A DNA stretch of 14,253 nucleotides from an uncultured Burkholderiales bacterium (GTDB lineage: Bacteria; Pseudomonadota; Gammaproteobacteria; Burkholderiales; Burkholderiaceae_F). The position numbers and the translations under genes were made by a program. Each line of letters begins with the position of its first letter. Positions within the stretch are counted from its first letter, which is position 1. Under the pieces are notes generated by a model. It worked only from the letters and a program-made list of their open reading frames with translations. It did not search any database and was not told the origin of the DNA. Below are positions 1,639-14,253 of the stretch, piece by piece. The stretch lies in NCBI GenBank assembly GCA_903871435.1, contig CAIQGU010000412.1, positions 1-14,253 on the forward strand, in the 5' to 3' direction.

Positions 1639-1902
1639 TCAGCCCCTCTTCTTGCCGGCGCGGTCCGCCATTTCGGCGGCCCACTTCGCCTCAAGCTCGG
1701 CGACGCGGGCCTCCAGATCGCCGAGGCGGTCATGGGCCTTCGCGGGCGCATCGAACGGCTCGCGCGCGCAGCCGTGGCTGAGCGCCTGATCGACGTGGGC
1801 GGCCGGCACCGTCACGGTGCCGTCGGCTGCCACCTCGTGGACGTCGTCGCCGATGTGCAGGCTGTGCAGTCCCGGGCGGGCGTGAAGCTTCACCTTGACC
1901 AT
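1639..1902 (-). CDS. Small protein downstream of capsid, C-terminal coiled coil
   Basis: This 87-aa protein has a short beta-rich N-terminal half (MVKVKLHARPGLHSLHIGDDV, EVAADGTVTVPAAH) and a C-terminal predicted coiled coil (LGDLEARVAELEAKW) ending in a basic tail. It sits one base after the major capsid stop codon, where head-decoration or head-fibre base proteins and small connector factors are often encoded. I do not recognise the family. The ribosome binding site is weak, so translation is probably coupled to the capsid gene. Confidence 0.65.
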   Translation of the reverse strand: MVKVKLHARPGLHSLHIGDDVHEVAADGTVTVPAAHVDQALSHGCAREPFDAPAKAHDRLGDLEARVAELEAKWAAEMADRAGKKRG

Positions 1903-1903
1903 G

Positions 1904-3409
1904 TCAGCCGTTCCCGATGTTGGTGATCATGCCGTAGGCGGCGGGGAAGTAGTTCTGCAGCACGCCGTCGAACGACACGCTGAACTCCACCTTCCGCTTG
2001 GTCTGCGGCCATACCTCGGCGCGGTAATCCTCGCGCAGGCGCTTCACCAGCGGCGCATCCACCTCCGACATCGGATACGGGATCTGCTCGCTGTCGAAGA
2101 AGATGGTGCCGGGCGGCAGGTTGGGATGCAGGCGCACGGCCAGCGGCTTCGAGCCACTGAGCGTGAACTTGTTCAGATAGCTGGTGACCAGGTCGCCACC
2201 GGTGATGTTGCCCTTGTTGCTGTTGATCATGAAGCGCTGGCCACCGCTGGTGCCGGCCGTCAGCACCTTCTGGGTGATGTTCTTCGCCTCCTGGCTGGAG
2301 ACCCAGATCGTGTCCGGGCTGAGTCGGTAATTGTCCCAGAAGGCCTGTAGCGCGGTGTCGATCTCGACCACGGCGCCCTTGTTGTCGCCCGTGAGCGGCG
2401 TGCCGGTGCCGGCGGTGCCGGTGGCCATGGCGGCGAAGTAGCCGCCGTAGCCGGTCTTGGCCACCTGCGTCAGCACACCGTCATAGACCAGGCCGTTCGT
2501 GCTGTAGTCGCTCGCGCCCAGCGACGATGCCAGCTGCGTGCCGGTGCCGGCGGCGGTGGTGATCACCGTGCTGTTGATCGTGGTGATCGCGCCGAGCGTT
2601 TCTGAGCCGGACGCACCCCAGAACCAGGCATAGGCCGCCGTGCCGGCGATCGCCGCGGTGCTGGCCGAGATGGAATGCGCGGTGCCGGCGTCGTTCGCGG
2701 TCGTGACCACCTTCGCGGTGGACGGGATGCCCGATCCGCCGCCGTAGGTATCGGTGGTGCCGTCCGCGTTGGTGCGGGTCACCTGGCGCTTGATGCCGCC
2801 GGCCACCGAGCCGGAGACATAACCCTGCAGCGACAATGGCACCACGATGATCGAGACGGCGGTGTTGAAGTTGATGGCGCCGCCGGTGGTGATGTCCGCG
2901 GCCGTCGGCGTGGCGGGCTTGCCGAGCGCGTTGGAGGTGTTGCCCCAGAGGTCGAGCAGCTCCTCGCCGAGCATTGTGGCCCACAGCAGATGCGTCTGGG
3001 CTGCGGCCAGCAGGTCCATGAAGCCGCCGGCGGCCAGCTTGGCGGCGCGCGTGACACTGTCTTCGAGGCCGAGCTGCTTGTAGCTGGCGTAGTAATCGGC
3101 CGTGGTGCTGGACATCACCGCGCCGCGGTTGCCGTCCGACAGGCCGAGCTCGACGGCGGTGGTGTTGATGCCGGTGAAGGCGCGCCAGTTGGCCTGGATG
3201 CTGCCATCGGCCATGCGGCGCGGGATACGGTTGCGCAGCGGCGTCAGCACCGGGACGAGAAATTTCGCCGGGCGTTCCAGCGAGTAGTTGGTGATGCCGG
3301 AGACGGCCGAGCTGGCCTGGGTGAAGGCCTTGGCAAGATCGGAACTCGCGATCGACTGACGGGTCTGGTCGATGCTGTCCTGGGTCACGGCGGCGAGGAG
3401 GGCACTCAT
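1904..3409 (-). CDS. Major capsid protein
   Basis: At 501 aa this is the largest structural protein after the protease and has the features of an HK97-fold capsid subunit. It has a helical N-terminal arm (residues 1-40), then LRNRIPRRMADGSIQANWRAF (about 58-78) and a long helix at about 120-155. The C-terminal half has DTIWVSSQEAKNITQKVL (366-383), RLHPNLPPGTIFF and WPQTKRKVEFSVSFDG. Residues about 185-300 are rich in Thr, Ala, Gly and Ser with an AAYAWFWGASGSETLGAIT core, and look like a surface insertion. An AAGGA ribosome binding site lies 8 nt before the ATG. The protease-scaffold gene directly upstream supports the call. It corresponds to Mu gene T by position. Confidence 0.85.
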   Translation of the reverse strand: MSALLAAVTQDSIDQTRQSIASSDLAKAFTQASSAVSGITNYSLERPAKFLVPVLTPLRNRIPRRMADGSIQANWRAFTGINTTAVELGLSDGNRGAVMSSTTADYYASYKQLGLEDSVTRAAKLAAGGFMDLLAAAQTHLLWATMLGEELLDLWGNTSNALGKPATPTAADITTGGAINFNTAVSIIVVPLSLQGYVSGSVAGGIKRQVTRTNADGTTDTYGGGSGIPSTAKVVTTANDAGTAHSISASTAAIAGTAAYAWFWGASGSETLGAITTINSTVITTAAGTGTQLASSLGASDYSTNGLVYDGVLTQVAKTGYGGYFAAMATGTAGTGTPLTGDNKGAVVEIDTALQAFWDNYRLSPDTIWVSSQEAKNITQKVLTAGTSGGQRFMINSNKGNITGGDLVTSYLNKFTLSGSKPLAVRLHPNLPPGTIFFDSEQIPYPMSEVDAPLVKRLREDYRAEVWPQTKRKVEFSVSFDGVLQNYFPAAYGMITNIGNG

Positions 3410-3426
3410 GCTGGGGTCCTTCTGGG

Positions 3427-4887
3427 TCAGGCCGACAGGCGGCCGGTCATGGCGAGGCGGGTTGCGACGGCGGCTTTGGCCAGGCCGTCCGGCATGGCAT
3501 GGAAGGCTGCGAGTTCGGGATCGCCGGCGGAGGACGGCGCGATGTCCTCACCGCGCCCGACGGCGCGCAGCCGCACGCCGCCCGGCTGCGGCATGGCACG
3601 CAGCCGCTCCAGCTCGGCGCGCATGCTGTCGGTGGCGGCGTTGGCCTTGGCCAGGCTCTCGCGCGCGGTGGCGAGCTCGGTGACGGTGTTGATCACCATC
3701 CCCATCACATCGCCGGGCAGCCGCGCGCCTTTCATCATCGGATCGTCATCGTCAGAAACGATCTCGACGACCGGCTTGGGCATGGCCGGCAGCTGCGCCA
3801 CGGCGGCGGACAGACTGGCCACGGCCTCCATCGTTTCTTCGCCGGCCATCGCCTGGAAGATCGCGGCACCCTCGGCGATCCAGGCGGACAGCCGCGCCGG
3901 GATCGCGCTGCCATCGCCTTCCCAACCGGCTTCGCATGTCACGTCCGCAGCGAGGCTGGTGAGGCTGTCGATCAGGCTGGCCATGCGGGAGACGCTGTAG
4001 AGGCCCTTGATCATCATGGTGGGCGGGCGCCACGCCTCCGGCAGGGACGCCGCAAGGCCCAGTGCCTCGGCCCGCGCGATCACATGCGCCTGGGCGTCCG
4101 CATCGGCGGCCTTCAGTAGCACCAGCGAGGCCGCCTCGATGTCGGCGAGGGCTGCGATCGGGAACCGGCCATCCGCCATGGCCACGCCCTGCGCGGCCAG
4201 ATCACGGCGCGTCGCCGGGTTCCAGAGATGCGCCGCCTCGGCCGGGGCGTTCATGGCCGAGGTGTCGCCGAGTGCCTTCGCCAGATCATCAGCCGCGAGG
4301 CCGATCACGAGAGCGCCGAGCTCGGCCGGGGATTGCGCGGCACCGAAGGCTTTCAACAGATCCAGCGTGTCGGGCGATACGCCCGGTTGCGCCGGTTCAA
4401 TGAACGAGACGGCCTGCTCGCCGCCATCGGCCTTGATCAGCGTGAACGTCGCATTCGGGTTGCAAGGCGTATCGACCAGCGACAGCTCGTGCATGCTGGT
4501 CACCGAGAAGCGGCGGATCGTGCCGTCCATGCGCCTGGCCGCTTTGCCGCCGGGCGAGATGCCGGTGTAGACGCCCTTGAGAACCTTCTCCCACTCGCCG
4601 TCGTCCACCACCTCGATGTCGAAGGAGATCGCCCGCGTGTCATCGTCAAAGGCGATCTCGCGCACGACGCCGGCGGCTGTGCCCAGCGGGAAGCCCGCGT
4701 GCATGCCGCGCACGTTGCCCTTGCTCAACCCCTGGCTGGCGGCGAACTGCTCATCGGACCATGCCTGCACCACCGGCTTGCTCGCCGCGTAGTCCATCGC
4801 CTCGCCTGCTCGATCGACGCTCTCGTCGAGCGACGCAATGACGCGACGGCTTGTCGCGTCGGCCTTGCGGAGCGGAAAGATCAGCAT
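3427..4887 (-). CDS. Head maturation protease with C-terminal scaffold domain (XkdF/S78-like)
   Basis: The 486-aa product has a protease domain in the first 155 residues. His63 in VRGMHAGFP, Ser111 in VYTGISPGGKA and Glu134 in HELSLVDTPCNP are spaced like the catalytic His-Ser-Glu of the S78/XkdF prohead proteases; this assignment is by motif. The long alanine-rich helical remainder, with a coiled-coil stretch near residues 395-440 (TELATARESLAKANAATDSM), would serve as scaffold and be degraded after assembly. The start at 4887 is chosen because AGGAGG lies 5 nt upstream; a longer frame to 4956 includes the regulatory gap. The gene corresponds to Mu gene I and heads the capsid/connector operon. 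Confidence 0.82.
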   Translation of the reverse strand: MLIFPLRKADATSRRVIASLDESVDRAGEAMDYAASKPVVQAWSDEQFAASQGLSKGNVRGMHAGFPLGTAAGVVREIAFDDDTRAISFDIEVVDDGEWEKVLKGVYTGISPGGKAARRMDGTIRRFSVTSMHELSLVDTPCNPNATFTLIKADGGEQAVSFIEPAQPGVSPDTLDLLKAFGAAQSPAELGALVIGLAADDLAKALGDTSAMNAPAEAAHLWNPATRRDLAAQGVAMADGRFPIAALADIEAASLVLLKAADADAQAHVIARAEALGLAASLPEAWRPPTMMIKGLYSVSRMASLIDSLTSLAADVTCEAGWEGDGSAIPARLSAWIAEGAAIFQAMAGEETMEAVASLSAAVAQLPAMPKPVVEIVSDDDDPMMKGARLPGDVMGMVINTVTELATARESLAKANAATDSMRAELERLRAMPQPGGVRLRAVGRGEDIAPSSAGDPELAAFHAMPDGLAKAAVATRLAMTGRLSA

Positions 4888-4936
4888 GCGGCCTCCTGTG
4901 GATCGGAGGCCAGAATGGCTGTCTGCGGCATGCCGG

Positions 4937-4951
4937 ATCAGTCCGGCCGAC
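4937..4951 (-). promoter_or_regulatory. 15-bp late-promoter candidate motif upstream of the protease gene
   Basis: On the minus strand the sequence GTCGGCCGGACTGAT lies 50 nt upstream of the protease start. An exact copy lies 51 nt upstream of the lysis operon at 11690-11704. The two flanks differ, so the 15 bp are not part of a larger duplication. A weak -10-like CATTCT lies 19 nt downstream. Mu has late promoter PI in this place, before gene I. This copy also sits in a 6+4+6 inverted repeat (GCCGGA / TCCGGC, 4932-4947). Function is inferred. Confidence 0.5.
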
Positions 4952-4966
4952 AGCACCCGAACCGCA

Positions 4967-5050
4967 GATTTTGGGAGGCCGATTTTTCGCCCGCTGGCGG
5001 CGCTGTGGGTTTGGCCGCTTCAACGGGACGATCGATGCCCCAAAATCGGC
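4967..5050. repeat. Inverted repeats sharing one AAAATCGGC arm
   Basis: GCCGATTTT (4978-4986) is the exact reverse complement of AAAATCGGC (5042-5050). GATTTTGGG (4967-4975) is the exact reverse complement of CCCAAAATC (5039-5047). The same right arm can therefore pair with either of two left arms. These are among the most AT-rich stretches of the 222-bp gap between the endolysin and protease genes. They could be protein-binding sites or alternative RNA structures; nothing in the sequence decides. Confidence 0.45.
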
Positions 5051-5097
5051 TTAGAACCGTCTAACGGCATCTAATGACGTATGTCCGCGTCTAAGCG
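5051..5097. promoter_or_regulatory. Helically phased TCTAA array
   Basis: TCTAA occurs at 5060, 5070 and 5090, that is at 10-bp steps with one unit degenerate (CGTATGTCCG at 5078-5087). Units read CGTCTAACGG, CATCTAATGA and CGTCTAAGCG. Each has short inverted arms around a CTA centre (CCGT-CTA-ACGG, CAT-CTA-ATG, and a 6-bp stem GTCCGC/GCGGAC around the last). An inverted TTAGA at 5051-5055 faces the first unit. The array lies just after the endolysin gene in a non-coding gap. It looks like a multi-copy protein-binding site on one face of the helix. Confidence 0.45.
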
Positions 5098-5109
5098 GAC
5101 CGGCGCCTG

Positions 5110-5769
5110 TCACCCAGCGGACAGACGGGCCGCCTGGAACGGCAGCCGGGCCAGCCGGCGGGACCATCCAAAGCCGTAGATGCGCCAGGTCGGCAGCTTC
5201 GCCATGAAGTCCATCCGCTCGGCCAGAACGTCGATCGCCAGGTCCTCGCCCGGGCCATTGCCGGCGAGGCGACGCACGGCGGCCATGGTGCCGTCACCGA
5301 TATCGCCATCGACATCGGTGCCCGCGGCTTCCTGCAGCCATCGCGCCGCGCGCCCCACGCCGTTGTTGAACGCGGCATCGAGCGTCATCAGCGCCACGGC
5401 CGGCGGCAGTTCGTCGCCACGGATCGGCTTCCAATAGGCGAAGCGGGTGAGCTCGCGCGCCTGGTCAAGCGTGAGGTCGCGCACCAGCGCCGGATAGCGC
5501 GGCGCCAACGCGGCCGGCAGCGCCTTGCGCGCATCGCAGTAGCTCGCCGTGTCGATACCGTAGCGCGTGCCGCCGAGCGTGCCGACGCCGACAGCGCCGC
5601 CGGTCCAGTTGCCGCTGTCCTCGCGGCTCATGTCCAGCCCGTCATCTTCACAGATGAACTGCCCGGCACCGATCGCCCTGCCGGACCAGGCGGACGGGTC
5701 CAGCGGATCGGCGCCGACCTCGTGCACCATCAGGGCCGCGAAGCATTGCTCGAAGATGGTGGCGGGCAT
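5110..5769 (-). CDS. Endolysin, glycoside hydrolase family 108 with C-terminal PG-binding domain
   Basis: The 219-aa product is a phage muramidase that would cleave peptidoglycan at host lysis. The N-terminal GH108 domain has the putative catalytic Glu17 in LMVHEVGADP, then SGNWTGGAVGVGTLGGTRYGI (about 52-72) and YWKPIRGDELPP (112-123). The C-terminal part matches the PG_binding_3 type, with LDAAFNNGVGRAARWLQEAAG (130-150) and DGDIGDGTMAAV. There is an insertion between the Glu loop and the TGG loop compared with the usual layout. No signal peptide is seen, so it needs a holin or pinholin. The start at 5769 follows a GGAGAG site; a frame to 5910 is a shadow extension. It lies in the head module, 5.3 kb from the spanin genes. 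Confidence 0.88.
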   Translation of the reverse strand: MPATIFEQCFAALMVHEVGADPLDPSAWSGRAIGAGQFICEDDGLDMSREDSGNWTGGAVGVGTLGGTRYGIDTASYCDARKALPAALAPRYPALVRDLTLDQARELTRFAYWKPIRGDELPPAVALMTLDAAFNNGVGRAARWLQEAAGTDVDGDIGDGTMAAVRRLAGNGPGEDLAIDVLAERMDFMAKLPTWRIYGFGWSRRLARLPFQAARLSAG

Positions 5770-6110
5770 CAGGCTCTCCTGCAATCGAGGTGGGCGAGGG
5801 CGACGGTGGGCGTACAGCCCATGCGCAAGGCCGCGTGATCGGCGCTGAGCGGATCCGCCGGATTGATCGCGGGCCGCAGCGCGCGCGGCAGGCTGGTGCG
5901 GAAGCGCCACGCCATCACGGCCACCTGGTGCCGCTCCTGCGGTGTCAGTGCTTCCGGCAGCCGCAGGCAGACGGATCGCGCGAACCGGTGATCCGCCCCG
6001 CCGGGCGCCAGGCGCAGCCGCGCCAGGGCCGCCATCCGCTGTTCGAGCAACGCCAGATCGACATGCTCCATACGGGCGATGTCGTCCTCGTCGAGCTCGG
6101 CCGGCCTCAT
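5769..6110 (-). CDS. Hypothetical protein between portal-F fusion and endolysin
   Basis: The start at 6110 overlaps the portal-F gene by 4 bp (ATGA), and the stop shares one base with the endolysin start (TGATG). The 113-aa product is acidic at the N-terminus (MRPAELDEDDIARMEHVD), then has a helix VDLALLEQRMAALARLRLA, and a second part with LTPQERHQVAVMAWRFRTSLPRAL. I do not recognise the family. A frame extending to 6671 is a shadow of the fusion gene and is not used. Tight coupling on both sides shows that it belongs to the same transcript. Confidence 0.7.
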   Translation of the reverse strand: MRPAELDEDDIARMEHVDLALLEQRMAALARLRLAPGGADHRFARSVCLRLPEALTPQERHQVAVMAWRFRTSLPRALRPAINPADPLSADHAALRMGCTPTVALAHLDCRRA

Positions 6111-8401
6111 GACGGCTTGCTCACGCCGGGCACCATCACGCAGTAGCAGGCCGGGTGAAACGGCGGCGCGAAGCCCACTTCCCAGCTGTCCTCGATCGGG
6201 ATGGCGCCTTCCAGCACGGCCGAGCGGCAGGCGATGCAGTGGTTCTCGTTCATGCCGAGGATCACCCGCTTGGTGATCGCCACGCCGCTGAGCCGGGAGC
6301 TCGCGCGCCAGCTGTCGATCTTGCCGAGGGACTGCGCCCGCTTCAGCTCGGTGCGCGCGATCAGCAACGCGCGATCCTCGCTGAAGGCATGATCGGCCAC
6401 GATCCGGTCGATCAGCTGCTGGGTGCTCCACCCCTCGGCGATTGCCTGACTGACCACCCGGTTGAGCGCCGCGCGCGTGGTGTCGCTTACGCCGCGCACC
6501 AGATCGGCGGCCTGGGCCTGCGCCGCCGCGATCGCATGCGGGTTCGCCAGCCGCGTGGCGTCCTTCACGGTGATGCCGGCGATCTTCGCCAGATCCTGCA
6601 TGCCCTCGCTCACACCGGCCGTGGCGGCCGTCTCCAACATGGCCGAGCTGCTGGCCTGCACCGCTGGCCACGGCATCGCGGCCACCGCCTTGTCGATCGC
6701 CTCCGTCACATTCTGCGGCACCGCCGGGGCGCCGGTGTGGACGGCGCGCGGGGCGAGCTGGTCCGCGATGCGCGACGCGTCCGCCAGATCATCGAAGGTC
6801 GAGGGCTCATCGGCCGGCTTGTCACCGGTCTCGTCGCCGGCCGCCTTCTGCATGCTGTCCGGCAGCAGCGCAGCGATGGCCTGCGCCACACGCGGGGCCT
6901 CGTGCGCCAGGAAATGAGACCAGATTGCCCCCAGCCGCGCATCGTCGCCGGCGGCCTTCAGCAGCTGCTCCTGGGCATCCGCCTCATCCGGCTTCGGCGC
7001 ATCCGCCCCGCCCATCACCGGCCCGCCGTTATGGCCGATCTGCGGCGGCGGTGGTGGCGGAGCCAGTGCTACGGACAGCGGCACGGCCCCGGTCGGCGTG
7101 TAGATCAGATTGACATCGCCACCCTCGATCGGGTCGCGTCCGATATCCGCCAGCACCTGGTTGATCGTCAGCACGCCCACCTTGAGGTAGCCGGTCGAGA
7201 CCGTCATCTGCTCGGCCGGGTTCGTCTCCATTTCCTCGTGCCAGGCGAACTCGATGTCGTGCCAGCCCCAGCCGGCCACGATGCACCGGTCGATCACCCG
7301 CTTCACCCACTGCATCAGCGGAGCGAGGCCCTCGGCATTGGCCATGCCGGAGGCGGTCTCGGCCGTGGCACGGTTGATCTGCTTCACCGCCCATTGCGGC
7401 GAAACGCTGAACGCGTAGCTGACGATGCGCGCCAGCCACTCGTCGAACTCATCCTTGAGGGCTGCTTCCTTGGTCTGGGTGAACCCCTTGGCAATGCCGC
7501 CCGGCACGAACCGCACCCGCCGCCGCGACGCCTGATCCCCAGTCAGCAGCTCGTCCCAATAGCGCTGGAAGTCGCCGATCTGCTCGACGGACCAGGTCTC
7601 CGGCACGCCGGCCAGCGCATCGGGGATCGTGCCGGCGGTGTAGTATTCGAGCTGATGCAGCTGCCGCCGCAGCGCGACGTTCACCGTCATCGCCACCTGC
7701 TGCACCTGAGACAGGCCGTAGAGCTTGTAGGAACGCAGGTTGCGCGGGAGGTAGAGCAGCTCCTCGCGCGTGTAGTTCACCGCCGGCAGACCCTTCAGCA
7801 CCTGCTGATAGGCCGGCGCCGGCGGCAGCGGCGTCCGCCCGAAATCGTCGATCACCCGCTTGATCGTGCCGCCATCCACGAACTCGAAGCCGTAGATGCC
7901 GCCGCCCATGGTCCGGCGCGGGAACAGCGTGGCGGCATCGAGCACGAACATGTCGTCCAGCAGCGGTCTGATCCACTCTTCCCAGCAATGCTCGCCGTCC
8001 GGCGTCTCGAAGAACGCCGCGAGCACGCCCAGCCGCTTGTCCGGCGTCTTGCCCCGCGCCGATTTGTCCTTCAGCTGGAACTGCCAAGTCTGGCCGCAGA
8101 GCTGATCCTTCCGCGTCTCGATCACCAGGCGCAGCACGTCGCAGTTCTCGGCCAGCGCGCGGAGCTGCTCGGCCGAGACGTCCTCGTCCTGGCGCGGGCT
8201 GGTGGTGAGGTTGGTGGCTGTCGGGAAATCGAACTGCCGGCCGCCGATGCCGGGCGGCGCCTGTGGCGCAATCGGCTCGGCGGGGCCGAACCAACTGGGG
8301 CCACGGCCCGTGACGGCATAGACCACAGCGGTAGCCAGACGAGAGAACAGCGCGGGCTTGCCGGGCGCGGGCACATTGCCGGGCTGCGTCGTGTCGCTCA
8401 T
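6107..8401 (-). CDS. Portal protein fused to Mu F-like minor head protein
   Basis: The 764-aa protein combines two jobs usually held by two genes. Residues about 60-445 are a portal protein: LAENCDVLRLVIETRKDQ (83-100), FVDGGTIKRVIDDFGRTPLPP (about 174-194), REELLYLPRNLRSYKLYGLS (212-231) and a C-terminal MTVSTGYLKVGVLTINQVLAD stretch. Six prolines (448-453) and IGHNGG begin a linker of about 110 residues. Residues about 570-755 are a Mu F-like (PF04233-type) domain with IARTELKRAQSLGKI (681-695), Cys722-x2-Cys725 and HPACYC (749-754), a possible metal site. The portal would form the dodecameric DNA gate and the F part would be a minor head protein inside the head. No stop or frameshift is visible at the junction. 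Confidence 0.88.
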   Translation of the reverse strand: MSDTTQPGNVPAPGKPALFSRLATAVVYAVTGRGPSWFGPAEPIAPQAPPGIGGRQFDFPTATNLTTSPRQDEDVSAEQLRALAENCDVLRLVIETRKDQLCGQTWQFQLKDKSARGKTPDKRLGVLAAFFETPDGEHCWEEWIRPLLDDMFVLDAATLFPRRTMGGGIYGFEFVDGGTIKRVIDDFGRTPLPPAPAYQQVLKGLPAVNYTREELLYLPRNLRSYKLYGLSQVQQVAMTVNVALRRQLHQLEYYTAGTIPDALAGVPETWSVEQIGDFQRYWDELLTGDQASRRRVRFVPGGIAKGFTQTKEAALKDEFDEWLARIVSYAFSVSPQWAVKQINRATAETASGMANAEGLAPLMQWVKRVIDRCIVAGWGWHDIEFAWHEEMETNPAEQMTVSTGYLKVGVLTINQVLADIGRDPIEGGDVNLIYTPTGAVPLSVALAPPPPPPQIGHNGGPVMGGADAPKPDEADAQEQLLKAAGDDARLGAIWSHFLAHEAPRVAQAIAALLPDSMQKAAGDETGDKPADEPSTFDDLADASRIADQLAPRAVHTGAPAVPQNVTEAIDKAVAAMPWPAVQASSSAMLETAATAGVSEGMQDLAKIAGITVKDATRLANPHAIAAAQAQAADLVRGVSDTTRAALNRVVSQAIAEGWSTQQLIDRIVADHAFSEDRALLIARTELKRAQSLGKIDSWRASSRLSGVAITKRVILGMNENHCIACRSAVLEGAIPIEDSWEVGFAPPFHPACYCVMVPGVSKPS

Positions 8402-9741
8402 GTGAGCGCTCCTGCATGGGTTTCAGGGGCGGCCTCGCGCGCCTTCATCGCGGCGTGCTGCTGGCGCATCCATTCCAGCATCCCGTCAGCCGGCTTGGTG
8501 ATGAACGGATCGGCGCCGGCGATCGCCATCATCCCGGCCCAGGCGCGGTCGGCGTGGCCCTCGCCGTCACGATCGGCGACTAGGCGCGGCATGCCGGTCT
8601 CGCTGGTGATCTTCTTGATCTTGTGCAGATCGGCCCGCAGCTTCGGATCGCCCGCGGGAATGCGCAGCTTGCGATCCTCGAACGCCATCTTCGCGGCGCT
8701 CGCCACGTTCATCCGCACGGCGCCGTTGAGATGCAGGCCAATCACCCGGCCGCGCCCGTAGCGTGCCTTGGCATCCTCCACCGGCTTCTCGCCCATGCCG
8801 GTCTGGTCCATCACCAGCCGCTCGACGGTGTAGCGCCCCATCAGCCGCTCGATCTCGGCATCCTGCGCCGCGAAGCTCGCGCCCTTGAGCGTCACGATCT
8901 CGCGCGTCCACATCACATCGCCCAGCAGCTCCAGCACCCAGGCGACCCAGAGGTCGTTCCGGCGCGCGATGTCGTTGCCGATGAACACCCGGCCGCCCTG
9001 GTAGCCTTCCGGCCTTCCTGCGGCCTCGTCCTCGCACTGGGTAATGATGTCGTAGCTCAGCCAGGCGCTGCTTTCGTCCAGGAACTCCAGCAGGAATTCT
9101 TGCCGCCACAGATCCTCGTCACCGGCGTTGCGGTGCAGCTCCTCGATGTCGCGTGGCAGGCCGTCCGCCACCGCCTGGTTGATGTCCACCAGGTGGCGGG
9201 ACCAGCCATCGTCCGCGCCGGTCATCAGCTCATAGAACTTGTTCTGCTTGCCGTTCGGCGTGCTCACCACGCGCAGCTTGAGCCCGGGCTTGGAGATCAC
9301 CGGGAACAGCGCGCGCCAGATCGCCCGGCTGTCCCGGTGAAACGCGAACTCGTCGAGCATCACGTTGGCGGAGAAGCCGCGCGCGGTGTCCGGATTGGCG
9401 GGCAGCGCCGTGATTTTGCTGCCGGACGGGAAGGTCACCTCGGCGGCGCGATGCGTCGCGTCATCGATCTTGAGGTCGAACTCCATGATCTCGCCGGCCA
9501 GGCCATAGGCCTTCATATGCGGGCGCACGCCTTCGTTCAGCGCCTCGAACGCCTGACGCTCGCCGCGCGACAGGATGATCCAGCGGGTGCGGCCCTTGTT
9601 GAGCTCGTGATCGACGCAGTCGTCGGTTGCTTCCAGGGTGGTGGTAAAGGTCTTGCCAGTCTGGCGGGCGAACATGCCGATCTTGAACCGCGTGCGATCC
9701 TTCAGCCAGCGCACCTGGTAGGGATAGAGCAGGCCGCTCAT
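8398..9741 (-). CDS. terL: Terminase large subunit (Mu gp28-like)
   Basis: The 447-aa packaging motor has all expected elements. The Walker A motif is ARQTGKT (25-31, Lys30), Walker B is NVMLDEFAF (126-134, Asp130-Glu131) and the coupling motif is VVSTPNG (158-164). In the nuclease half, Asp257 (IGNDIARRNDLW), Asp312 (VMDQTGMG) and the DGEGHADRAWA stretch (His396, Asp398) are candidate metal ligands. It uses ATP to drive DNA into the prohead and cuts it. It overlaps both neighbours by 4 bp (ATGA). The length is somewhat short for Mu gp28-type terminases but no part is missing. Confidence 0.93.
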   Translation of the reverse strand: MSGLLYPYQVRWLKDRTRFKIGMFARQTGKTFTTTLEATDDCVDHELNKGRTRWIILSRGERQAFEALNEGVRPHMKAYGLAGEIMEFDLKIDDATHRAAEVTFPSGSKITALPANPDTARGFSANVMLDEFAFHRDSRAIWRALFPVISKPGLKLRVVSTPNGKQNKFYELMTGADDGWSRHLVDINQAVADGLPRDIEELHRNAGDEDLWRQEFLLEFLDESSAWLSYDIITQCEDEAAGRPEGYQGGRVFIGNDIARRNDLWVAWVLELLGDVMWTREIVTLKGASFAAQDAEIERLMGRYTVERLVMDQTGMGEKPVEDAKARYGRGRVIGLHLNGAVRMNVASAAKMAFEDRKLRIPAGDPKLRADLHKIKKITSETGMPRLVADRDGEGHADRAWAGMMAIAGADPFITKPADGMLEWMRQQHAAMKAREAAPETHAGALT

Positions 9742-10295
9742 GCTTCGCCCGCATACAGCGCGCGGATGCGGGCGATCATCTCGGCCGGCGTCAGCGCCTC
9801 GGCCGTCGCTTCCACCTCAACCTGCGCGATCTTCTTCTCCAGCTCGGCGACGAGTTCCTTCTTCAGCCGCAGCGTCTTCTCAAGGTCGGATTTCTCGGCC
9901 GAGGACAAATTGGCGAGCGCCTTGGTCAGAAACTGCAGGTCCTTCGCGTTGAGGTTCACCGCCCCTTCCGGATCGACGCTGGCGACCAGCAGGCGCGTCA
10001 GCAGCGACTGCATGACGCGGATGTTGAGCCGGGCCTGTCGGTTCTCGGGTTCCTCGCCGATGCGGCGCACCAGCCCCTCGGACATCGCCTGCCCTTCGGA
10101 GATCAGCCCGGCCAGCGCATCGAGCCCCTGGACATGGCGATGCAGGCCGGAGCGGGACGGCAGGCCGTCTTCGTCCAGCCCCATCTTGCTAAGATAGACC
10201 AGGATTTCATCAAGCGTGTGGCCGTCCTGGCGCAGGCGCGTGATGGCGTCCCGGACGTCGCTCGGCAGTTTGTCAACCTTGGACGGGCGCGGCAT
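9738..10295 (-). CDS. DUF3486 family protein, Mu gp27-like small terminase candidate
   Basis: The 185-aa product begins MPRPSKVDKLPSDVRDAI, the typical opening of the DUF3486/Mu gp27 family. It continues with a helix-turn-helix-like segment (TLDEILVYLSKMG to LPSRSGLHRHVQGLD, about 27-59) and a long coiled coil (about 125-160, SDLEKTLRLKKELVAELEKKIA). The combination of DNA-binding N-terminus and oligomerising coiled coil, directly upstream of the large terminase with a 4-bp overlap, supports the role of DNA-recognition subunit. Its start shares one base with the stop of the preceding gene. Confidence 0.87.
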   Translation of the reverse strand: MPRPSKVDKLPSDVRDAITRLRQDGHTLDEILVYLSKMGLDEDGLPSRSGLHRHVQGLDALAGLISEGQAMSEGLVRRIGEEPENRQARLNIRVMQSLLTRLLVASVDPEGAVNLNAKDLQFLTKALANLSSAEKSDLEKTLRLKKELVAELEKKIAQVEVEATAEALTPAEMIARIRALYAGEA

Positions 10296-10597
10296 CAGCC
10301 GGGCGCCAGCCGCCAGCGCGACTGCTCCACGCCCGAAACGGCAATCCGCCCTTCGGCCGCCATCCGGCCGCGATCGGTCAGCGTGACCATGATCGCGTCA
10401 TCGTTGTCGAGCGCGATGCACTCCTCATCGGCGAGAAACGCCAGGTCCACCGCGTAGGTGCTGCGGCGGTCCCGCGCGAAGCCGCCATGCTCCAGCGCCA
10501 CGTAGATGACATCGGCCGGCGTCTCAGCGCCGATCCGCGCGAGCAGCCGCAGGATGAACACTCGTCGCGCTGCGTCCAGATCGGTTTGCAGGCTCAT
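10295..10597 (-). CDS. Small winged-helix-like phage protein (Mu gp26 position)
   Basis: The 100-aa protein has a helical N-terminus (QTDLDAARRVFILRLLARIGAETPADVIYVALEH), then a segment like a winged helix (RRSTYAVDLAFLADEECIALDNDDAIMVTLTDRGRMAAEG). The final TLTDRG is the usual wing strand. It resembles the small VpaChn25_0724-type proteins of Mu-like phages in size, layout and position just before DUF3486; the link is from memory of the family and not verified. Start and stop overlap the neighbours by 4 bp and 1 bp. Confidence 0.75.
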   Translation of the reverse strand: MSLQTDLDAARRVFILRLLARIGAETPADVIYVALEHGGFARDRRSTYAVDLAFLADEECIALDNDDAIMVTLTDRGRMAAEGRIAVSGVEQSRWRLAPG

Positions 10598-11010
10598 GCC
10601 CGGCCGGCTTTCAACGCACCGGCCTTCAGCGCGCCGTCCACAAGCACGTTCAACGGGCGTTCAATGCGCTCCAGCAGCTCGTGAACGCCTTGCACCTCCA
10701 CGCGGATGGCCTGGGCCGTGCCTTCCAGGCGCGTCATCCGCTCGCGGAGATCGGAGATCTCGCTGCTGCTGGGCATGTGCTTCATGTCGGTTTCCAGCAC
10801 GCTGATCCGCGCGCCCTGGGCGTCCATGTCCTCGCCCAGTGGCCCGATCGTCTCGGCCATATCCTTATGCGTCACGAGTGACTGCCGAATGACCCACCAG
10901 GCGGCGCCACTGAAAAGGCCGACGAAGCCGCCGATGAGCGTCAGAACGTCCACCCAGAACCGGGCGGACGAGGGGATGTCTTGAAGCAATTCTTTCTCCT
11001 GACCGATCAT
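10594..11010 (-). CDS. DUF2730-like membrane-anchored coiled-coil protein (Mu gp25 position)
   Basis: The 138-aa product has one hydrophobic span (about residues 18-42, FWVDVLTLIGGFVGLFSGAAWWV), then a charged coiled coil up to about 120 with heptads such as ISVLETDMKHM and ISDLRERMTRLEG. This is the build of DUF2730 proteins, found before gp26/gp27 in Mu-like phages. It ends with a short duplication (ALKAGALKAG). The ATG at 11010 overlaps the lipoprotein gene by 4 bp. A TTG at codon 8 has a GGAG site 7 nt upstream and is an alternative start. A longer frame to 11190 is a shadow. Confidence 0.78.
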   Translation of the reverse strand: MIGQEKELLQDIPSSARFWVDVLTLIGGFVGLFSGAAWWVIRQSLVTHKDMAETIGPLGEDMDAQGARISVLETDMKHMPSSSEISDLRERMTRLEGTAQAIRVEVQGVHELLERIERPLNVLVDGALKAGALKAGRA

Positions 11011-11276
11011 GGCGTGGGCGGGGGAACGGATGAGGACGCGGGGGCCGCGCCGGCGCAGGCGCGGACCACGGCGCGCAGCGCCGCGTAATCCGCCATGAAG
11101 CGCGGCAGCACCGAGGTGGGTGGCAGCGCTTCGAGCTCGTCCGCGGCCCGGGTCTGGTCCACCAGGTCGTATTCGACGAGCGGCGGGCAATCCGGCTCAG
11201 AAATGCCCGGCGCGCAGCTCGCGAGCCACAGCAGCGGGATCATGAGGCGCAGCGGTTTCGGCCACGAGTTCGGCAT
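11007..11276 (-). CDS. Rz1-like outer-membrane spanin lipoprotein
   Basis: The 89-aa product has a basic/hydrophobic signal (MPNSWPKPLRLMIPLLWLASC) ending in a LASC lipobox with Cys21 as the expected lipidated residue. The mature part is about 69 residues and proline-rich at its end. The first 80 bp lie inside the end of the upstream membrane protein gene in another frame, the usual Rz/Rz1 arrangement. It would join the inner-membrane partner across the periplasm to fuse the membranes in the last step of lysis. The AAGGTGA site before the ATG supports the start. Confidence 0.72.
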   Translation of the reverse strand: MPNSWPKPLRLMIPLLWLASCAPGISEPDCPPLVEYDLVDQTRAADELEALPPTSVLPRFMADYAALRAVVRACAGAAPASSSVPPPTP

Positions 11277-11424
11277 GGGTCACCTTGTCGGTTATGGCCA
11301 AATCCTTGGCCTGCTGCGCCGTGGCGCCGGCGCTGCGCAGGGCGGAGATGCCCCACACAGCGCCGCACACCACGGCCAGGGCGGCCGCCGCATACACGGC
11401 CGCCGAGATCCCGGCCGGGATCAC
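11197..11424 (-). CDS. Rz-like inner-membrane spanin candidate
   Basis: The 75-aa product starts at GTG in a GTGA overlap with the upstream gene. It has one N-terminal membrane span (about 5-27, ISAAVYAAAALAVVCGAVWGI) followed by a helical periplasmic part rich in Ala, Gln, Asp and Lys (ATAQQAKDLAITDKVTHAELV). It is short for an i-spanin. The call depends mainly on the out-of-frame overlap with a lipoprotein gene. It could be another small membrane lysis protein. Confidence 0.6.
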   Translation of the reverse strand: MIPAGISAAVYAAAALAVVCGAVWGISALRSAGATAQQAKDLAITDKVTHAELVAETAAPHDPAAVARELRAGHF

Positions 11425-11639
11425 TTCGCAGCGGGTGTGGGGACGGCCACCGGCGCGGGCGCCGGCTTCAGATTGCCGATGAAGTGGATGGCGCCGTAGA
11501 TCACCGAATAGACCGTGGAGCTGGCCGTGGTCGGCGCCGGCAGCAGCAGCAGCACGGCGGTCGCGATCGCGATGACGAAGGTGATGTAGGGGATGATGCT
11601 GGCATAGGGCGTGGCGGCCAGCAGGGATACGATGTCCAT
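11421..11639 (-). CDS. Small membrane protein, holin candidate
   Basis: The 72-aa product has one long hydrophobic segment (about 12-37, ASIIPYITFVIAIATAVLLLL), then a Ser/Thr-rich part and an Ala-Pro-rich tail with a lysine at the end. Size, single span and first place in the lysis cluster fit a holin or pinholin, but no family signature is recognised. An AGGAGA site lies 8 nt before the ATG. It is the first gene after a 92-nt gap that holds the repeated 15-bp motif, so it likely heads the lysis/packaging operon. Confidence 0.6.
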   Translation of the reverse strand: MDIVSLLAATPYASIIPYITFVIAIATAVLLLLPAPTTASSTVYSVIYGAIHFIGNLKPAPAPVAVPTPAAK

Positions 11640-11689
11640 GGGTGCTCTCCTGGGTGGGAGCCTGACCCTAGAAACCTGTGCTCGCGCGT

Positions 11690-11704
11690 ATCAGTCCGGC
11701 CGAC
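11690..11704 (-). promoter_or_regulatory. 15-bp late-promoter candidate motif upstream of the lysis operon
   Basis: Minus-strand GTCGGCCGGACTGAT is repeated exactly at 4937-4951, at almost the same distance from the start codon (51 against 50 nt). A weak -10-like TAGGGT lies 19 nt downstream, the same offset as in the other copy. A shorter related element (GCGGACTGAC) lies 41 bp further upstream at 11731-11740, about four helical turns away, over the stop codon of the helix-turn-helix gene. Mu has Plys in this position. The remaining gap (11640-11731) shows nothing else clear. Confidence 0.5.
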
Positions 11705-11731
11705 GCCACATGAAGGCGGCGCGGCCGATGG

Positions 11732-12133
11732 TCAGTCCGCCTGATGCGACGCGATCGCGGCAGCGGTCGCCACAGTCGATCCGCGCGGCACGACGTGAAC
11801 GCTTCTGCCGCATCGTGCCGCGATCTGCCCGAGCATTGCGGCGTGCGCGCCGACGCAGGGCCAGCCCAACGACTGAGCCTCGTGATCGTCCGACGCGATC
11901 CCCAGCTCGATGACGACACCGCCTGGATGTCGCGCGATCACGTCCAACGCCTGATCGGCACCCTTCTCGATGAGCCGATACAGCGCCCGCAGCTCGGCGA
12001 GGATGCCGTCTTTCACCGGATTGCGTCCAGATGCCCAGGATTTCACGGTGTCGGGTCGCACGCCGAGAAAGTCAGCGGCCTCTCTTTGCGAGAGGCCGCA
12101 CCGGTCGAGCAGCAGGGCAAATGCTGTGATCAC
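11732..12133 (-). CDS. XRE-type helix-turn-helix regulator, in the place of Mu C
   Basis: The 133-aa product has an N-terminal XRE/Cro-like domain. FALLLDRCGLSQREAADFLG (5-24) supplies the first helices and helix 2, and VRPDTVKSWASGRNPVKDGI (25-44) the recognition helix region. The C-terminal half (about 70-133, GGVVIELGIASDDHEAQSLGW) looks like a small alpha/beta domain and is not recognised. GTG at 12133 is chosen because it forms a GTGA overlap with the upstream gene; ATG at 12181 would add 16 residues inside that gene. It lies between a Mor-like gene and the lysis operon, so it may be the late-stage activator or a repressor of the promoter upstream. Confidence 0.8.
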   Translation of the reverse strand: MITAFALLLDRCGLSQREAADFLGVRPDTVKSWASGRNPVKDGILAELRALYRLIEKGADQALDVIARHPGGVVIELGIASDDHEAQSLGWPCVGAHAAMLGQIAARCGRSVHVVPRGSTVATAAAIASHQAD

Positions 12134-12360
12134 CGGATTACGTGGCCGCGCAGCCCGCAAATGCGGCTCTCGCCAAGCCACGCCTCCACGATGTCGCCCC
12201 GGTGATCGGTCCCGACGTGACTTCCCTTCGGGAGAAGGGCGGTCGCGCCAGCGGCGACGCGACGGGCGTTTTCATGAACAACGAGCGCCTCGCGAATGGT
12301 GGTCGCGTCGATCCACGTTGTCTGATTGGTGCGAGCGTTGGTGATCAGGAATTCGGTCAT
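12130..12360 (-). CDS. Hypothetical 76-aa protein, first gene of the middle operon
   Basis: The start at 12360 is supported by a GGAG site 8 nt upstream; an in-frame ATG at 12417 would lie inside the promoter palindrome and is rejected. The product (MTEFLITNARTNQTTWIDAT, then REALVVHENARRVAAGATALLPKG and GDIVEAWLGESRICGLRGHV) is a small mixed alpha/beta protein with no recognised family. It is coupled to the downstream helix-turn-helix gene through a GTGA overlap and is probably transcribed from the promoter just upstream. Confidence 0.68.
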   Translation of the reverse strand: MTEFLITNARTNQTTWIDATTIREALVVHENARRVAAGATALLPKGSHVGTDHRGDIVEAWLGESRICGLRGHVIR

Positions 12361-12404
12361 CTCAGGTTCTCCACCTCGTCCAGCGGGCCAATCCCACTGG
12401 GCAT

Positions 12405-12436
12405 CGTCAAAATACACGACCCGTGTATTTCGTCAA
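12405..12436 (-). promoter_or_regulatory. Promoter with 9+3+9 palindrome between -35 and -10
   Basis: On the minus strand TTGACG (12431-12436) and TATTTT (12409-12414) are separated by 16 bp and fit sigma-70 -35 and -10 elements (5/6 and 4/6 matches). The spacer is nearly filled by a perfect palindrome, AAATACACG-ACC-CGTGTATTT (12410-12430). It is one of the most AT-rich stretches of the window and lies in the 88-bp gap downstream of the Mor-like gene. Predicted transcription would start about 40 nt before the 76-aa gene. The palindrome is a likely operator or activator site. Confidence 0.65.
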
Positions 12437-12448
12437 TATCCGTCTTCG

Positions 12449-12964
12449 TCAGGCGTCCGTCAGACGAAGCCCGCGCCGATCGGGCGCAAACCCGAAATCC
12501 AGCTGCGGGCGATCGCCCATCGGCGCGGCATCGCGCCCACCGCGCCGCCCGCCGATCCCATAGCGCCGGCCCACGCCGCGGATCGCATCTGTGATCTCCA
12601 CACCCGCAGGATCGAACCCTTCCAGCAGCCGCGTCACCCAGCGCGGGCCGAGCTCCAGCTTCTGCGCGATCTGGGCATTGTTGCAGCCCAGCACCTTCAG
12701 CGCCCGCGCCTCGAACCAGTTCAGCGGGCCCTTGCAACTCGGCACCAGGCGCTCCTCGCCGCCCAGGCGCTGGCAGATCAGCTGCGCCGCGCGATGCCCC
12801 ACGCAGGCCGCGATCGGGTGCGAGGAATAGATGCGCTGCGGGAAATACACCTTCCGGCCGCTGAACGTCCGGGCGAAGCGCAGCGTCAGCGGCAGGCCGA
12901 CGAGATCGCAGATCTCGCCGAGCAGCGCAGGCAGCAGGTTCACCGGAAATTCGAGCGCGGCCAT
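12449..12964 (-). CDS. Mor/C-family transcription activator
   Basis: The 171-aa product fits the Mor transcription activator family. It has a helical N-terminus (NLLPALLGEICDLVGLPLTLRFA), a short strand GRKVYFPQ (37-43) like the dimer strand of Mor, then conserved-type HRAAQLICQRLGG and a C-terminal helix-turn-helix (FEARALKVLGCNNAQIAQKL, 84-103, and LGPRWVTRLLE, 105-115). Residues 116-171 form an Arg/Gly-rich extension not present in Mu Mor (129 aa). In Mu, Mor turns on the middle promoter just downstream; here a palindromic promoter lies 13-bp beyond the stop codon. A GGAG site 7 nt before the ATG supports the start. Confidence 0.82.
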   Translation of the reverse strand: MAALEFPVNLLPALLGEICDLVGLPLTLRFARTFSGRKVYFPQRIYSSHPIAACVGHRAAQLICQRLGGEERLVPSCKGPLNWFEARALKVLGCNNAQIAQKLELGPRWVTRLLEGFDPAGVEITDAIRGVGRRYGIGGRRGGRDAAPMGDRPQLDFGFAPDRRGLRLTDA

Positions 12965-12966
12965 GA

Positions 12967-13263
12967 TCAGCTCCGTCGGCTGGAATAATCGGGGGGCAAA
13001 ACCGTCACGATCATGGCGTGCATCGGTTCATAGACCACGCGAACGCCCCGCCCATCCGGCAGGCGCACCAGCCACAGCTCGCGGCCAAACCGCTGGCGCT
13101 GCAGCAGGATCGCGGTGCTGCGGTCACCCGCGAGCGTGAGAACGATGTCCGCCACCATCGCGCCAAACGCGGCCGGCGACAGAGACACGCCGTAACGTGC
13201 CAGCGCCTGTTCGGCGGCGTGGGGGCAGCCGTATTGATGCGCGGAAGGCGGGAGCGCGTTCAT
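12967..13263 (-). CDS. Hypothetical 98-aa phage protein upstream of the Mor-like gene
   Basis: The product has an N-terminal helical part (AEQALARYGVSLSPAAFGAMVADIV, about 16-40) and a beta-rich C-terminal half (RELWLVRLPDGRGVRVVYEP, MHAMIVTVLPP). The pattern of helix then four strands with RRG/VVYD-like and IVTVLP motifs is shared by small proteins often seen before Mor in Mu-like phages; no function is known to me. It has a distant RelE-like look, but no catalytic residues can be assigned. A GGGAG site lies 6 nt before the ATG. Its stop is 2 nt before the Mor-like start. Confidence 0.72.
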   Translation of the reverse strand: MNALPPSAHQYGCPHAAEQALARYGVSLSPAAFGAMVADIVLTLAGDRSTAILLQRQRFGRELWLVRLPDGRGVRVVYEPMHAMIVTVLPPDYSSRRS

Positions 13264-13290
13264 GGCGCGCTCCCGCTGCTGTGCCGGACG

Positions 13291-13470
13291 TTAAGCGGCG
13301 TCCAGCAGGTCTCCGGCCACCGCTTCGAGGCGCTCGCCCAGCAGGTCGAGCACAACGCCGAGGCCGGCCGTGGTGTCGTCAGAGAGCGAGATTTCGCCCT
13401 CCAGCAACCGGGCCAGCGCGCGCATCGCGGAGGATATCCGCGCCACGCACGCCCCGTGGTCAGGCGGCAT
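13291..13470 (-). CDS. Small hypothetical protein, 59 aa
   Basis: The frame opens with MPPDHGACVARISSAMRALA and ends in LGERLEAVAGDLLDAA, then TAA. It is a mostly helical, acidic protein with leucine heptads (RLLEGEISLS, VVLDLLGERLEAV), suggesting a small helical bundle or dimer. The ATG overlaps the end of the upstream small gene by 11 bp (ATGCCGCCTGA), and the downstream gene starts 27 nt after its stop. The codons end mostly in G or C, as in neighbouring genes. Family and function are not recognised. It fills an otherwise empty interval in the early operon. Confidence 0.6.
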   Translation of the reverse strand: MPPDHGACVARISSAMRALARLLEGEISLSDDTTAGLGVVLDLLGERLEAVAGDLLDAA

Positions 13471-13621
13471 CGGGTGGCAGCGCTGGAACTGCTTCCAGCT
13501 CTCCGTCGATCACCGTGAAAGACCAGCCTTCCAGTGCTTCGATCTGCTCCTTCGTGAGGCTGTCGAAATGGCATTTCATCAGAAATGCAGCTTCGTCTGA
13601 GGCCGTTTCCAACATTTCCAC
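13460..13621 (-). CDS. Small hypothetical protein, 53 aa
   Basis: The frame starts at GTG (13619-13621), 8 nt after a GGAGG site and 3 nt after the stop of the upstream gene. ATG two codons later is an alternative but lies far from that site. The product (MEMLETASDEAAFLMKCHFD, SLTKEQIEALEGWSFTVIDG, ELEAVPALPPDAA) is acidic, with one helix, one short strand and a Pro/Ala tail. No family is recognised. Tight packing with both neighbours and a good ribosome binding site argue that it is real. Confidence 0.6.
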   Translation of the reverse strand: MEMLETASDEAAFLMKCHFDSLTKEQIEALEGWSFTVIDGELEAVPALPPDAA

Positions 13622-13624
13622 GGC

Positions 13625-14253
13625 TTACGCCTCCGCGCCCGGCTCGAAGGCGAAAGACGGCTGCTCCGACGCGGGCGGCGTGGAAAAGGCAAACCACGCC
13701 AGCAAGTCGAGCTGCCCTGCCGTCAGACCAACCTGCCGCCCCAAGGCGTTGGCTTTGCGCCTCACCTCGCCGCGTTCGGCTTTGAACCCTTGGGTCAGCA
13801 CTTTTTCCTGGTGACGCAGAACCATGACGTCGTCGACCACCGGATGCTCCAGCCAGTCGGTTGGGCGCGCCGCCTGAAAAAACAGATCCTTGTTGACCCG
13901 CTTGCCGGTGTGCACCGGCAGGCCCTTCGTCGCGCACACCCAGGCGGCATAGAGCAGCTTGGCGCTCTTTGTCTGGAACGCGATCAGTGTGTTCCGCACC
14001 TTCGCCGAGTCTGGCCCCGCCCCTGCCACCTTGGGCCGGGTGCGCGAGACTGTCCTCCGCTGCTTTGCGGCCCTCGCGGCCTCGTCCGAGGGACGGCTCG
14101 CCCTCGGCTGGAGCCCCCCCGCCGACGAGTCATTGGGGTCGTCGCCGCTGGAGCCGCCGCCGCCGGGCGAGGGCGAGGGCGAGGGCGAGGGCGAGGGCGA
14201 GGAGGGTGCCGCGGGGCGGGCGCTGCTCGCGGCCGCGCCCTGGCTGGCGAGGG
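13625..14253 (-). CDS. Partial early-region protein with (Ser-Pro)n linker, N-terminus missing
   Basis: A frame ending in TAA at 13625 stays open for 208 codons to the right edge. No good start or ribosome binding site is seen at the internal GTG codons (14029, 13999), so the gene probably begins outside the window. The visible part starts with an Ala/Ser/Pro-rich stretch, an (SP)n tract, glycines and an Arg/Lys-rich segment (ARAAKQRRTVSRTRPK). A folded domain follows: LIAFQTKSAKLLYAAWVCAT, LFFQAARPTDWLEHPVVDDV and QVGLTAGQLDLLAWFAF. The last two resemble a helical DNA- or protein-binding module, but I do not recognise it. The alternative is a 134-aa protein from GTG 14029. Confidence 0.6.
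   Translation of the reverse strand, partial: LASQGAAASSARPAAPSSPSPSPSPSPSPGGGGSSGDDPNDSSAGGLQPRASRPSDEAARAAKQRRTVSRTRPKVAGAGPDSAKVRNTLIAFQTKSAKLLYAAWVCATKGLPVHTGKRVNKDLFFQAARPTDWLEHPVVDDVMVLRHQEKVLTQGFKAERGEVRRKANALGRQVGLTAGQLDLLAWFAFSTPPASEQPSFAFEPGAEA
14165..14200. repeat. GGGCGA hexanucleotide microsatellite, six units
   Basis: Six exact tandem copies of GGGCGA make a 36-bp tract. On the minus strand, in the open frame of the partial gene, it reads as alternating Pro and Ser codons (CCC TCG). Because the unit is a multiple of three, copy-number change would alter linker length without a frameshift. Confidence 0.85.

Follow-up and report, generated by a model that had tools for sequence, protein, structure and literature searches.

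Identical sites before two operons of a Mu-like prophage as probable targets of a Mor/C-family late activator

The window analyzed here is the whole 14,253-nucleotide (nt) contig CAIQGU010000412.1 (positions 1–14,253) from an uncultured Burkholderiales bacterium (assembly GCA_903871435.1), and its minus strand carries the middle part of a Mu-like phage. Two exact copies of a 15-bp word, GTCGGCCGGACTGAT, lie on this strand in the gaps before the protease/capsid operon and before an operon that starts at position 11639. The two copies are very probably activator sites of two late promoters of the prophage, read by a 171-residue Mor/C-family protein encoded at 12449–12964. The sharing of sites within phages, a YAnnnT hexamer 30–32 nt downstream of many sites, third sites in relatives and the parallel divergence of site and regulator point to a late promoter set of the Mor/C type whose site has diverged. 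An activator-dependent late promoter set had been proposed in a first-pass annotation of the same DNA, and the within-phage sharing, the fixed –10 spacing and the tracking of the Mor/C protein by the site support that proposal.

Two promoter gaps of the window share a site

A mismatch search of the window places GTCGGCCGGACTGAT on the minus strand at 4951–4937 and 11704–11690. No other place matches with one or two mismatches and four match with three, so that the first-pass statement that the word occurs in both gaps and nowhere else holds to within two mismatches. The flanks of the two copies are unrelated, as also stated there. The lower copy (4937–4951) precedes the ATG at 4887 by 49 intervening nt, and the upper copy (11690–11704) precedes the ATG at 11639 by 50; the distances are near-equal as claimed, and the 50 and 51 nt originally given are coordinate differences. 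The weak –10-like hexamers that had been noticed at a common 19-nt offset are TAGGGT for the upper copy (11665–11670, minus strand) and CATTCT for the lower copy (4912–4917, minus strand), 19 nt downstream in each case. The upper 15-mer spans the center and the downstream half of a putative Mor/C-type element, TGGCGT followed by CGGCCGGACTGA (11708–11691, minus strand). The lower element is TGCTGT followed by CGGCCGGACTGA (4955–4938, minus strand). Measured from the center of the respective element, both hexamers lie 32 nt downstream.

An exact 15-bp direct repeat is by itself unremarkable in 14 kb. A Markov sequence is expected to hold 0.82 repeats of at least 15 bp, and the window also contains a simple tandem repeat and, in coding DNA, one 18-bp and two more 15-bp repeats. 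This expectation of about one per window is the point in favor of reading the repeat as a coincidence or as a trace left by DNA exchange between the gaps. The repeat is notable because both copies occupy promoter gaps at a near-equal distance from the start codon and an equal distance from the –10-like hexamer. For random sequences of the gap lengths (92 and 222 nt), the chance of any common word of at least 13 bp is 0.00125, as computed before an equal distance to the start codon is required, and the chance drops about 3.5-fold per extra base. The matching distances and the unrelated flanks argue against both chance and exchange, as does the same pairing of gaps in many phages with other sequences, and neither origin is seriously credible.

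The whole genome of the window (2.47 Mb, 64.7% complete, 532 contigs) contains no third exact copy of the 15-mer, one place with one mismatch and six with two. The one-mismatch place, on contig C328, was rejected as a phage site; it looks chromosomal and stands before an iron-transport-like gene (by eye).

Sites are alike within a phage and differ between phages

Relatives were retrieved via the terminase, with 80 loci coming from viral contigs. The 82 loci of relatives hold no match to the 15-mer with zero or one mismatch, which rules out the exact word as a family-wide signal; two-mismatch matches are present in seven loci. Scans elsewhere gave matches in at least 119 stretches among genome contigs and in 28 viral stretches, one match each. 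The only one of these stretches that was inspected, L123, comes from the same phage as found in a second assembly. The exact 15-mer is specific to the window's phage, and the arrangement is general.

The clade of the window has only GnCrrwCTG[A/C] in common. Locus L161 carries CGCATCGGACAGwCTGA in both gaps, and L157 carries TGACATykGsCAGTCTGA in both. TGAC-N4-GTCAGACTG is found in the upper gap of L158 and the lower gap of L156, the only gap readable in each (with 92% identity between the two contigs over 2.9 kb), and the lower gap of L159, also the only readable one, contains ACGTCAATCTGA. L164 has a palindromic word of a different kind in both gaps. Conservation between phages, suggested earlier as a check, is thus seen as a motif in both gaps of the collinear relatives L157, L161 and L164; the exact 15-mer is gone, and L168 is a locus where none was found.

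The same pairing was quantified over Mu-like loci in which a Mor/C-type gene and a protease gene are both present. The roughly 400 nt that follow the regulator gene were compared with the 230 nt preceding the protease gene, and a phage-specific ungapped word with a score of at least 14 is common to both gaps in 15 of 29 loci; between phages, 16 of 812 pairs reach that score. When the regulator is not used as an anchor, a wider search gives a score of at least 16 in 25 of 54 loci and in 4 of 324 control windows taken elsewhere in the same phage. Duplicates were skipped (L162, L256, L257 and L258 in the 29-locus test, and additionally L163 in the 54-locus search), and the phages of L206–L231 are close kin. 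A reverse-complement control was dropped since palindromic sites match it themselves.

The shared words include TCCCCCTGAGATTTCGCAGGCTCAAA in L188 (26/26 between the gaps), TTTATTGACAyGTGTCAATyCA in L179, L191 and L220, CCCCGGACACyTGTCCGGGT in L194 and CCTGAAnnnCTTCAGG in L207, L214 and L235. Rhodovulum phage RhkS_P1 has CCCCCGAAACwCCATCCCC, and Pasteurella phage AFS-2018a has TCTTTAAAsCACTTTAAAATC. A family-wide rule that goes beyond expectation emerges: the site is alike within a phage, differs between phages and tracks the regulator. No shared late-site motif was found in the accessible parts of publications describing the Pseudomonas Mu-like phages Fc02 and PaMx73/H70.

A further word, ATCTGCCCsCGTTCArATTAC, is shared by the gaps of L206, L209–L211, L215, L218, L221–L223, L225 and L231, and by those of L212 at a score of 13. 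The profile used detected no Mor/C-type gene in these close-kin phages, and their activator may belong to another family.

The site center often lies 30–32 nt from a –10-like hexamer

The distance from the site center to YAnnnT was counted for 47 sites (three from L208) that were hand-picked for a settable center. The dyad was too unclear in L182, L199, L252, L301, L302, Mu and the L206 group for these to be included. YAnnnT is found at 32 nt in 23 sites, at 31 nt in 8 and at 30 nt in 7, and each of the other 29 offsets examined gives counts of 0–5, where one site can count at several offsets. Both window sites fit the 32-nt distance. Exactly 20 nt separate CTG[A/C] from YAnnnT in eight of the nine sites of the window's clade. 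The hexamer and this spacing were first noticed on that clade, so its nine sites do not count as independent. Of the remaining 38 sites, whose center the palindrome defines, 15 have YAnnnT at 32 nt. The peak at 32 nt would put the site center near –44. L156 and L158 (TGAC-N4-GTCA) and many relatives show a clear dyad, and that of the window is poor.

RhkS_P1 (L252) and PeaS-P1 (L301) both display CCCCCGAAAC... and then, by eye, RTGGCA instead of YAnnnT at a nearly fixed distance. RTGGCA may point to a different type of –10 or to a different sigma factor.

A fixed distance to a –10-like hexamer also fits a host-type promoter, of which the copies would form a part and which the bacterial polymerase would use alone or with an alternative sigma factor, without a phage activator. 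The shared RTGGCA of RhkS-P1 and PeaS-P1, which lack YAnnnT, makes a different sigma factor in some hosts possible. The part upstream of the hexamer nevertheless varies from phage to phage and is often palindromic, while the –10 class stays, and the sites co-vary with the phage regulator. A promoter that works without a phage activator is accordingly highly improbable.

A Mor/C-family protein is the likely activator

The 171-residue protein (12449–12964, minus strand) matches phrog_836, 'late transcriptional activator', with E=1.3e-17. The two Mu regulators match that family as well, with E values of 2e-11 for C and 1e-10 for Mor. A profile built from 26 relatives matches the Mor structure (PDB 1rr7) at 8.3e-6. 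An iterated profile reaches Mu Mor at 7e-13 and Mu C at 3e-7, values that are possibly circular because hits were added back to the profile; the 1rr7 match and the PHROG matches of Mu C and Mor are free of that circularity. Pfam Mor is matched with E≤0.1 by 22 of 25 aligned members. The Mor/C-family gene ends 93–106 nt before the first lysis-position gene in L157, L158 and L161; the window has two additional genes separating the Mor/C gene from the upper site.

Site similarity follows the regulator. Over 17 phages, hand-picked for a settable site center, site and regulator similarity correlate with r=0.59, and with 0.45 given the terminase (partial Mantel test, p=4e-4). The correlation of site with terminase similarity is 0.42 alone and 0.03 given the regulator.

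An XRE-type protein is encoded between the Mor/C gene and the upper site (11732–12181, minus strand). It has weak helix-turn-helix matches, and its gene stands directly before the upper site; it could bind the two sites as an activator or a repressor. A tblastn search (E≤0.01) found no relative of the XRE-type protein in 104 loci, yet L157, L158 and L161 retain clade-type sites in the same gap. Since the site also tracks the Mor/C protein, control by the XRE-type protein is highly improbable. Both proteins had been named as candidates at the outset; the Mor-like one, which the site tracks, is favored, and the lack of relatives speaks against the XRE-type one. The sequence comparisons thus indicate that the Mor/C protein, not the XRE-type protein, likely activates the late promoters.

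Third sites precede late structural genes in three relatives

The first-pass annotation had suggested looking for a third copy before tail genes, the position of PP in Mu, as a check. Third copies before late structural genes are present in L161's phage, in L208 and in the Pasteurella phage. In L161's phage (locus L342), a 19-bp copy, GTCGCATCGGACAGACTGA, is identical to the lower-gap copy, has TAGCAT at the usual distance and stands just before a long late gene that is tape-measure-like by eye and position. In L208, three identical 18-bp palindromes precede a small lysis-position gene, the protease and a tape-measure-like gene (by eye). The third copy of the Pasteurella phage (3 mismatches) is found 66 nt ahead of a gene annotated as tail assembly, behind which the tape-measure gene follows. 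As a separate observation, the start codon of the long gene in L161's phage is only 6 nt behind TAGCAT, so that the transcript would have no leader unless the real start codon is farther along.

The tail region of the window's phage is on another contig of the same genome. A 31.3-kb contig from a different metagenome assembly, CAIQQQ010000339.1 (Rhodospirillales; L123, G693:C339), carries the window DNA (100% identity over 7.2 kb and 99.96% over 5.1 kb) and matches contig C358 of the window's genome (99.96% over 12.3 kb). Because both match this contig, the window (C412) and C358 are two parts of one prophage. A matrix of clade sites, which includes the two window sites and excludes the third, identifies a looser third site on the minus strand of C358 (G000:C358:1454-1489). 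It scores 20.6 bits, compared with 20.8 and 18.8 bits for the window sites and 13.1 bits for the next best place in 19.3 kb on both strands. The gap that holds the site, 14 nt behind an open frame, is followed by a 375-residue frame without a PHROG match and lies downstream of a 996-residue tail protein (phrog_1101). For this phage, a third copy exists in a looser form in the tail region, and none precedes the long tail gene. The long tail genes of this phage and of the L161 relative, tape-measure-like by eye and position, both lack a PHROG match.

Proposed mechanism and points against it

The observed sites, their spacing, the relatives and the protein family suggest a mechanism in which binding, dimerization, activation and start points are predicted. 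The 171-residue Mor/C protein would bind as a dimer to an element centered about 44 nt upstream of the transcription start. The bound dimer would replace the absent –35 box and would recruit the host sigma-70-type polymerase to the poor –10 boxes TAGGGT and CATTCT. The switch would turn on the operon of lysis and packaging genes and the protease/capsid operon, and the looser third site on the other contig would turn on the genes behind the tail tip. All sites must be read by one protein, which would keep them alike within a phage and let them diverge between phages along with the protein.

Several observations weigh against this mechanism. The element of the window is a poor palindrome, and the upstream halves of its two copies are unlike (TGGC and TGCT). 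No shared word was found in the two-gap searches of L168, which is collinear with the window. A strong shared word is missing from 14 of the 29 loci in the anchored test, the window included because its upper gap is more than 400 nt from the Mor/C stop codon. At a score of at least 14, the wider search finds a word in 38 of 54 loci and also in 45 of 324 control windows. A Mor/C gene went undetected in some of the phages whose gaps share a word. The comparison of the two gaps of Mu yields only the 10-bp TCCCGCACCT, which is probably the 10-bp match already reported for Plys and PI in the available text of PMC4461284.

On the protein side, the 171-residue protein alone matches Pfam Mor with E=0.011, under the cut-off. 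Its structural model has a predicted local distance difference test (pLDDT) score of 88 and no Foldseek match with E≤0.001, with 9l0x at rank 41 (E=2.4), and Mor and C are absent from the VIA-align rows shown; structure comparison thus singled out neither Mor nor C. In the tail region, the window's phage has no site before the long tail gene that matches the third-site gene of L161, and the third-site pattern matches two more places in the genome.

Gene content around the sites

On the minus strand, the upper part of the window contains the 171-residue regulator, a 95-residue frame, the XRE-type protein, the gap with the upper site and three small frames that are membrane- or spanin-like by eye. 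The middle part consists of a DUF2730-type gene, a 100-residue gene in the gp26 position, a gp27-like gene and the terminase. A portal/F-like fusion, a GH108 endolysin, the gap with the lower site, the protease, the capsid and connector genes form the lower part.

The first gene behind the upper site (11421–11639, minus strand) encodes a 72-residue membrane protein (by eye) without a PHROG or Pfam match; it is the gene with which the operon at 11639 starts, and it is kept directly behind the site in L157, L158 and L161. The first gene behind the lower site (3427–4887, minus strand) is head protease-like (phrog_9427 and phrog_80, head maturation protease, E about 1e-4) and is collinear in relatives. 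The capsid-position protein of the same operon (1904–3409, minus strand) matches phrog_13692, of unknown function, with E=1.5e-112, and its name is given by position.

The GH108 endolysin gene (5110–5763) stands between the F-like gene and the protease promoter. The label 'lysis operon' that had been given to the operon at 11639 calls for caution, since the endolysin gene lies outside it. A single 764-residue protein (6107–8401) combines a portal domain with a Mu F-like domain, and its F-like part is just under the Pfam cut-off. The 75- and 89-residue frames overlap (11007–11424), and the latter (phrog_26778, unknown function) has a lipobox-like LASC and resembles an embedded outer spanin. A tandem GGGCGA hexanucleotide repeat occupies 14165–14202, near the contig end.

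The regulator tail resembles a beta-clamp-binding peptide

The C-terminal tail of the 171-residue protein contains QLDFGF (residues 154–159; 12488–12505, minus strand), which resembles a beta-clamp motif. The pLDDT falls to 50–69 beyond residue 140, as for a flexible tail. In the regulator alignment, a short C-terminal peptide (QLDLF, QLSLF, QGSLF, QFDMF or QLDFGF) follows a variable linker.

Clamp-like peptides are present in the last 25 residues of 74 of 95 unique Mor/C tails (69 in the last 15). Shuffled tails give a mean of 8.6 and a maximum of 18 (1000 shuffles), internal stretches give 33/1747, and control tails from other proteins of these phages give 9/194, six of the nine from family g638 with its 15 tails. 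The count of 95 uses a penta- or hexapeptide pattern, of which the hexapeptide form was written after the tails had been inspected; the pentapeptide pattern alone is found in 27 of 83 proteins (shuffled mean 6.6, maximum 15). The QLDFGF of the window is of the looser hexapeptide type. The 95 tails leave out eight proteins (P0061, P0062, P0063, P0065, P0067, P0068, P0082 and P0083), which are fragments, non-members or longer duplicates; two of the eight had a clamp-like motif.

All eight named proteins that were checked, from seven phages, match phrog_836 and carry a clamp-like peptide: Mu C (QPDLF), Mu Mor (QPSLL), RhkS_P1 (QMPLPL), PeaS-P1 (QLSLPF), ThpS-P1 (QLSLF), B23 (QADMF), StopSmel (QMDLF) and Pasteurella Mor (QFDMF). 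QADMF is also the peptide of the replicative polymerase. In draws from whole genomes, the peptide is found in 10 of 30 Pfam-Mor loci and 16 of 28 regulator-search loci; at least two of those 16 (L293 and L295) are unlike the tail peptide, and many of the non-matching proteins end right behind the helix-turn-helix.

The bacterial beta-clamp-binding consensus is given as QL(S/D)LF at the C-terminus in the available part of PMC9690074. A search of the open-access literature, with subscription journals outside its scope, found no report of a clamp motif in Mor/C proteins. It is possible, as a tentative reading somewhat short of an even chance, that Mor/C activators, Mu C and Mor included, carry a C-terminal beta-clamp-binding peptide and attach to clamps that remain on newly replicated phage DNA. 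The Q-x-x-L-F peptide might instead contact RNA polymerase. Mor activation requires the C-terminal domains of alpha and sigma, as stated in the accessible part of PMC4287176, and a cryo-electron microscopy complex of Mu C with polymerase exists (9l0x; entry 9l0y holds Mor). The peptide variants nonetheless fit the beta-clamp consensus in both lengths (QLSLF, QADMF and QLSLPF). One chain of 9l0x has 108 resolved residues of 140, and some ends are therefore disordered. A polymerase contact is on balance rather unlikely.

If clamp docking is correct, the paired late promoters would be active chiefly on genomes that are being replicated, as a replication-coupled late switch acting via the host clamp. 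Mu late transcription probably needs replication, and the tail peptide is a possible direct explanation for late expression tied to replication in transposing phages, Mu included.

Relation to known systems

Comparing two gaps within one phage reveals a likely late-activator site, even for phages represented only by metagenome contigs. It yields many regulator/site pairs and thereby a way to learn the DNA choice of Mor/C proteins.

The closest parallels are the C-dependent promoters of Mu (Plys, PI, PP and Pmom), which also stand before the lysis and head operons and have a weak –10; the regulator gene of the Mor/C family is likewise upstream of the lysis operon. The site of the window differs in sequence from that of Mu C, the identity between its two copies is far stronger (15/15), and the regulator is only distantly related. 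The first-pass annotation had called the site unlike the TTAT-N6-ATAA of Mu C; this is right for the sequence, but the architecture is Mu-like, with the center 32 nt from the –10. Mu Mor binds a 16-bp dyad centered at –43.5, in place of a –35 box, according to the accessible part of PMC4390567. The centers in the window, 32 nt before the –10 and thus at about –44, match Mor at Pm within a base. Pm is a single middle promoter, whereas the protein of the window seems to serve two or three late promoters.

Clamp binding by the tail, if real, would link late transcription to replication, a parallel to T4 with its gp33, gp55 and clamp gp45. T4 uses its own clamp and a promoter-specificity factor, whereas the window's phage is proposed to use a DNA-binding activator and the host clamp. 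In architecture, the promoter set of the window belongs with the Mor/C-dependent promoters of Mu, and its site and regulator have diverged.

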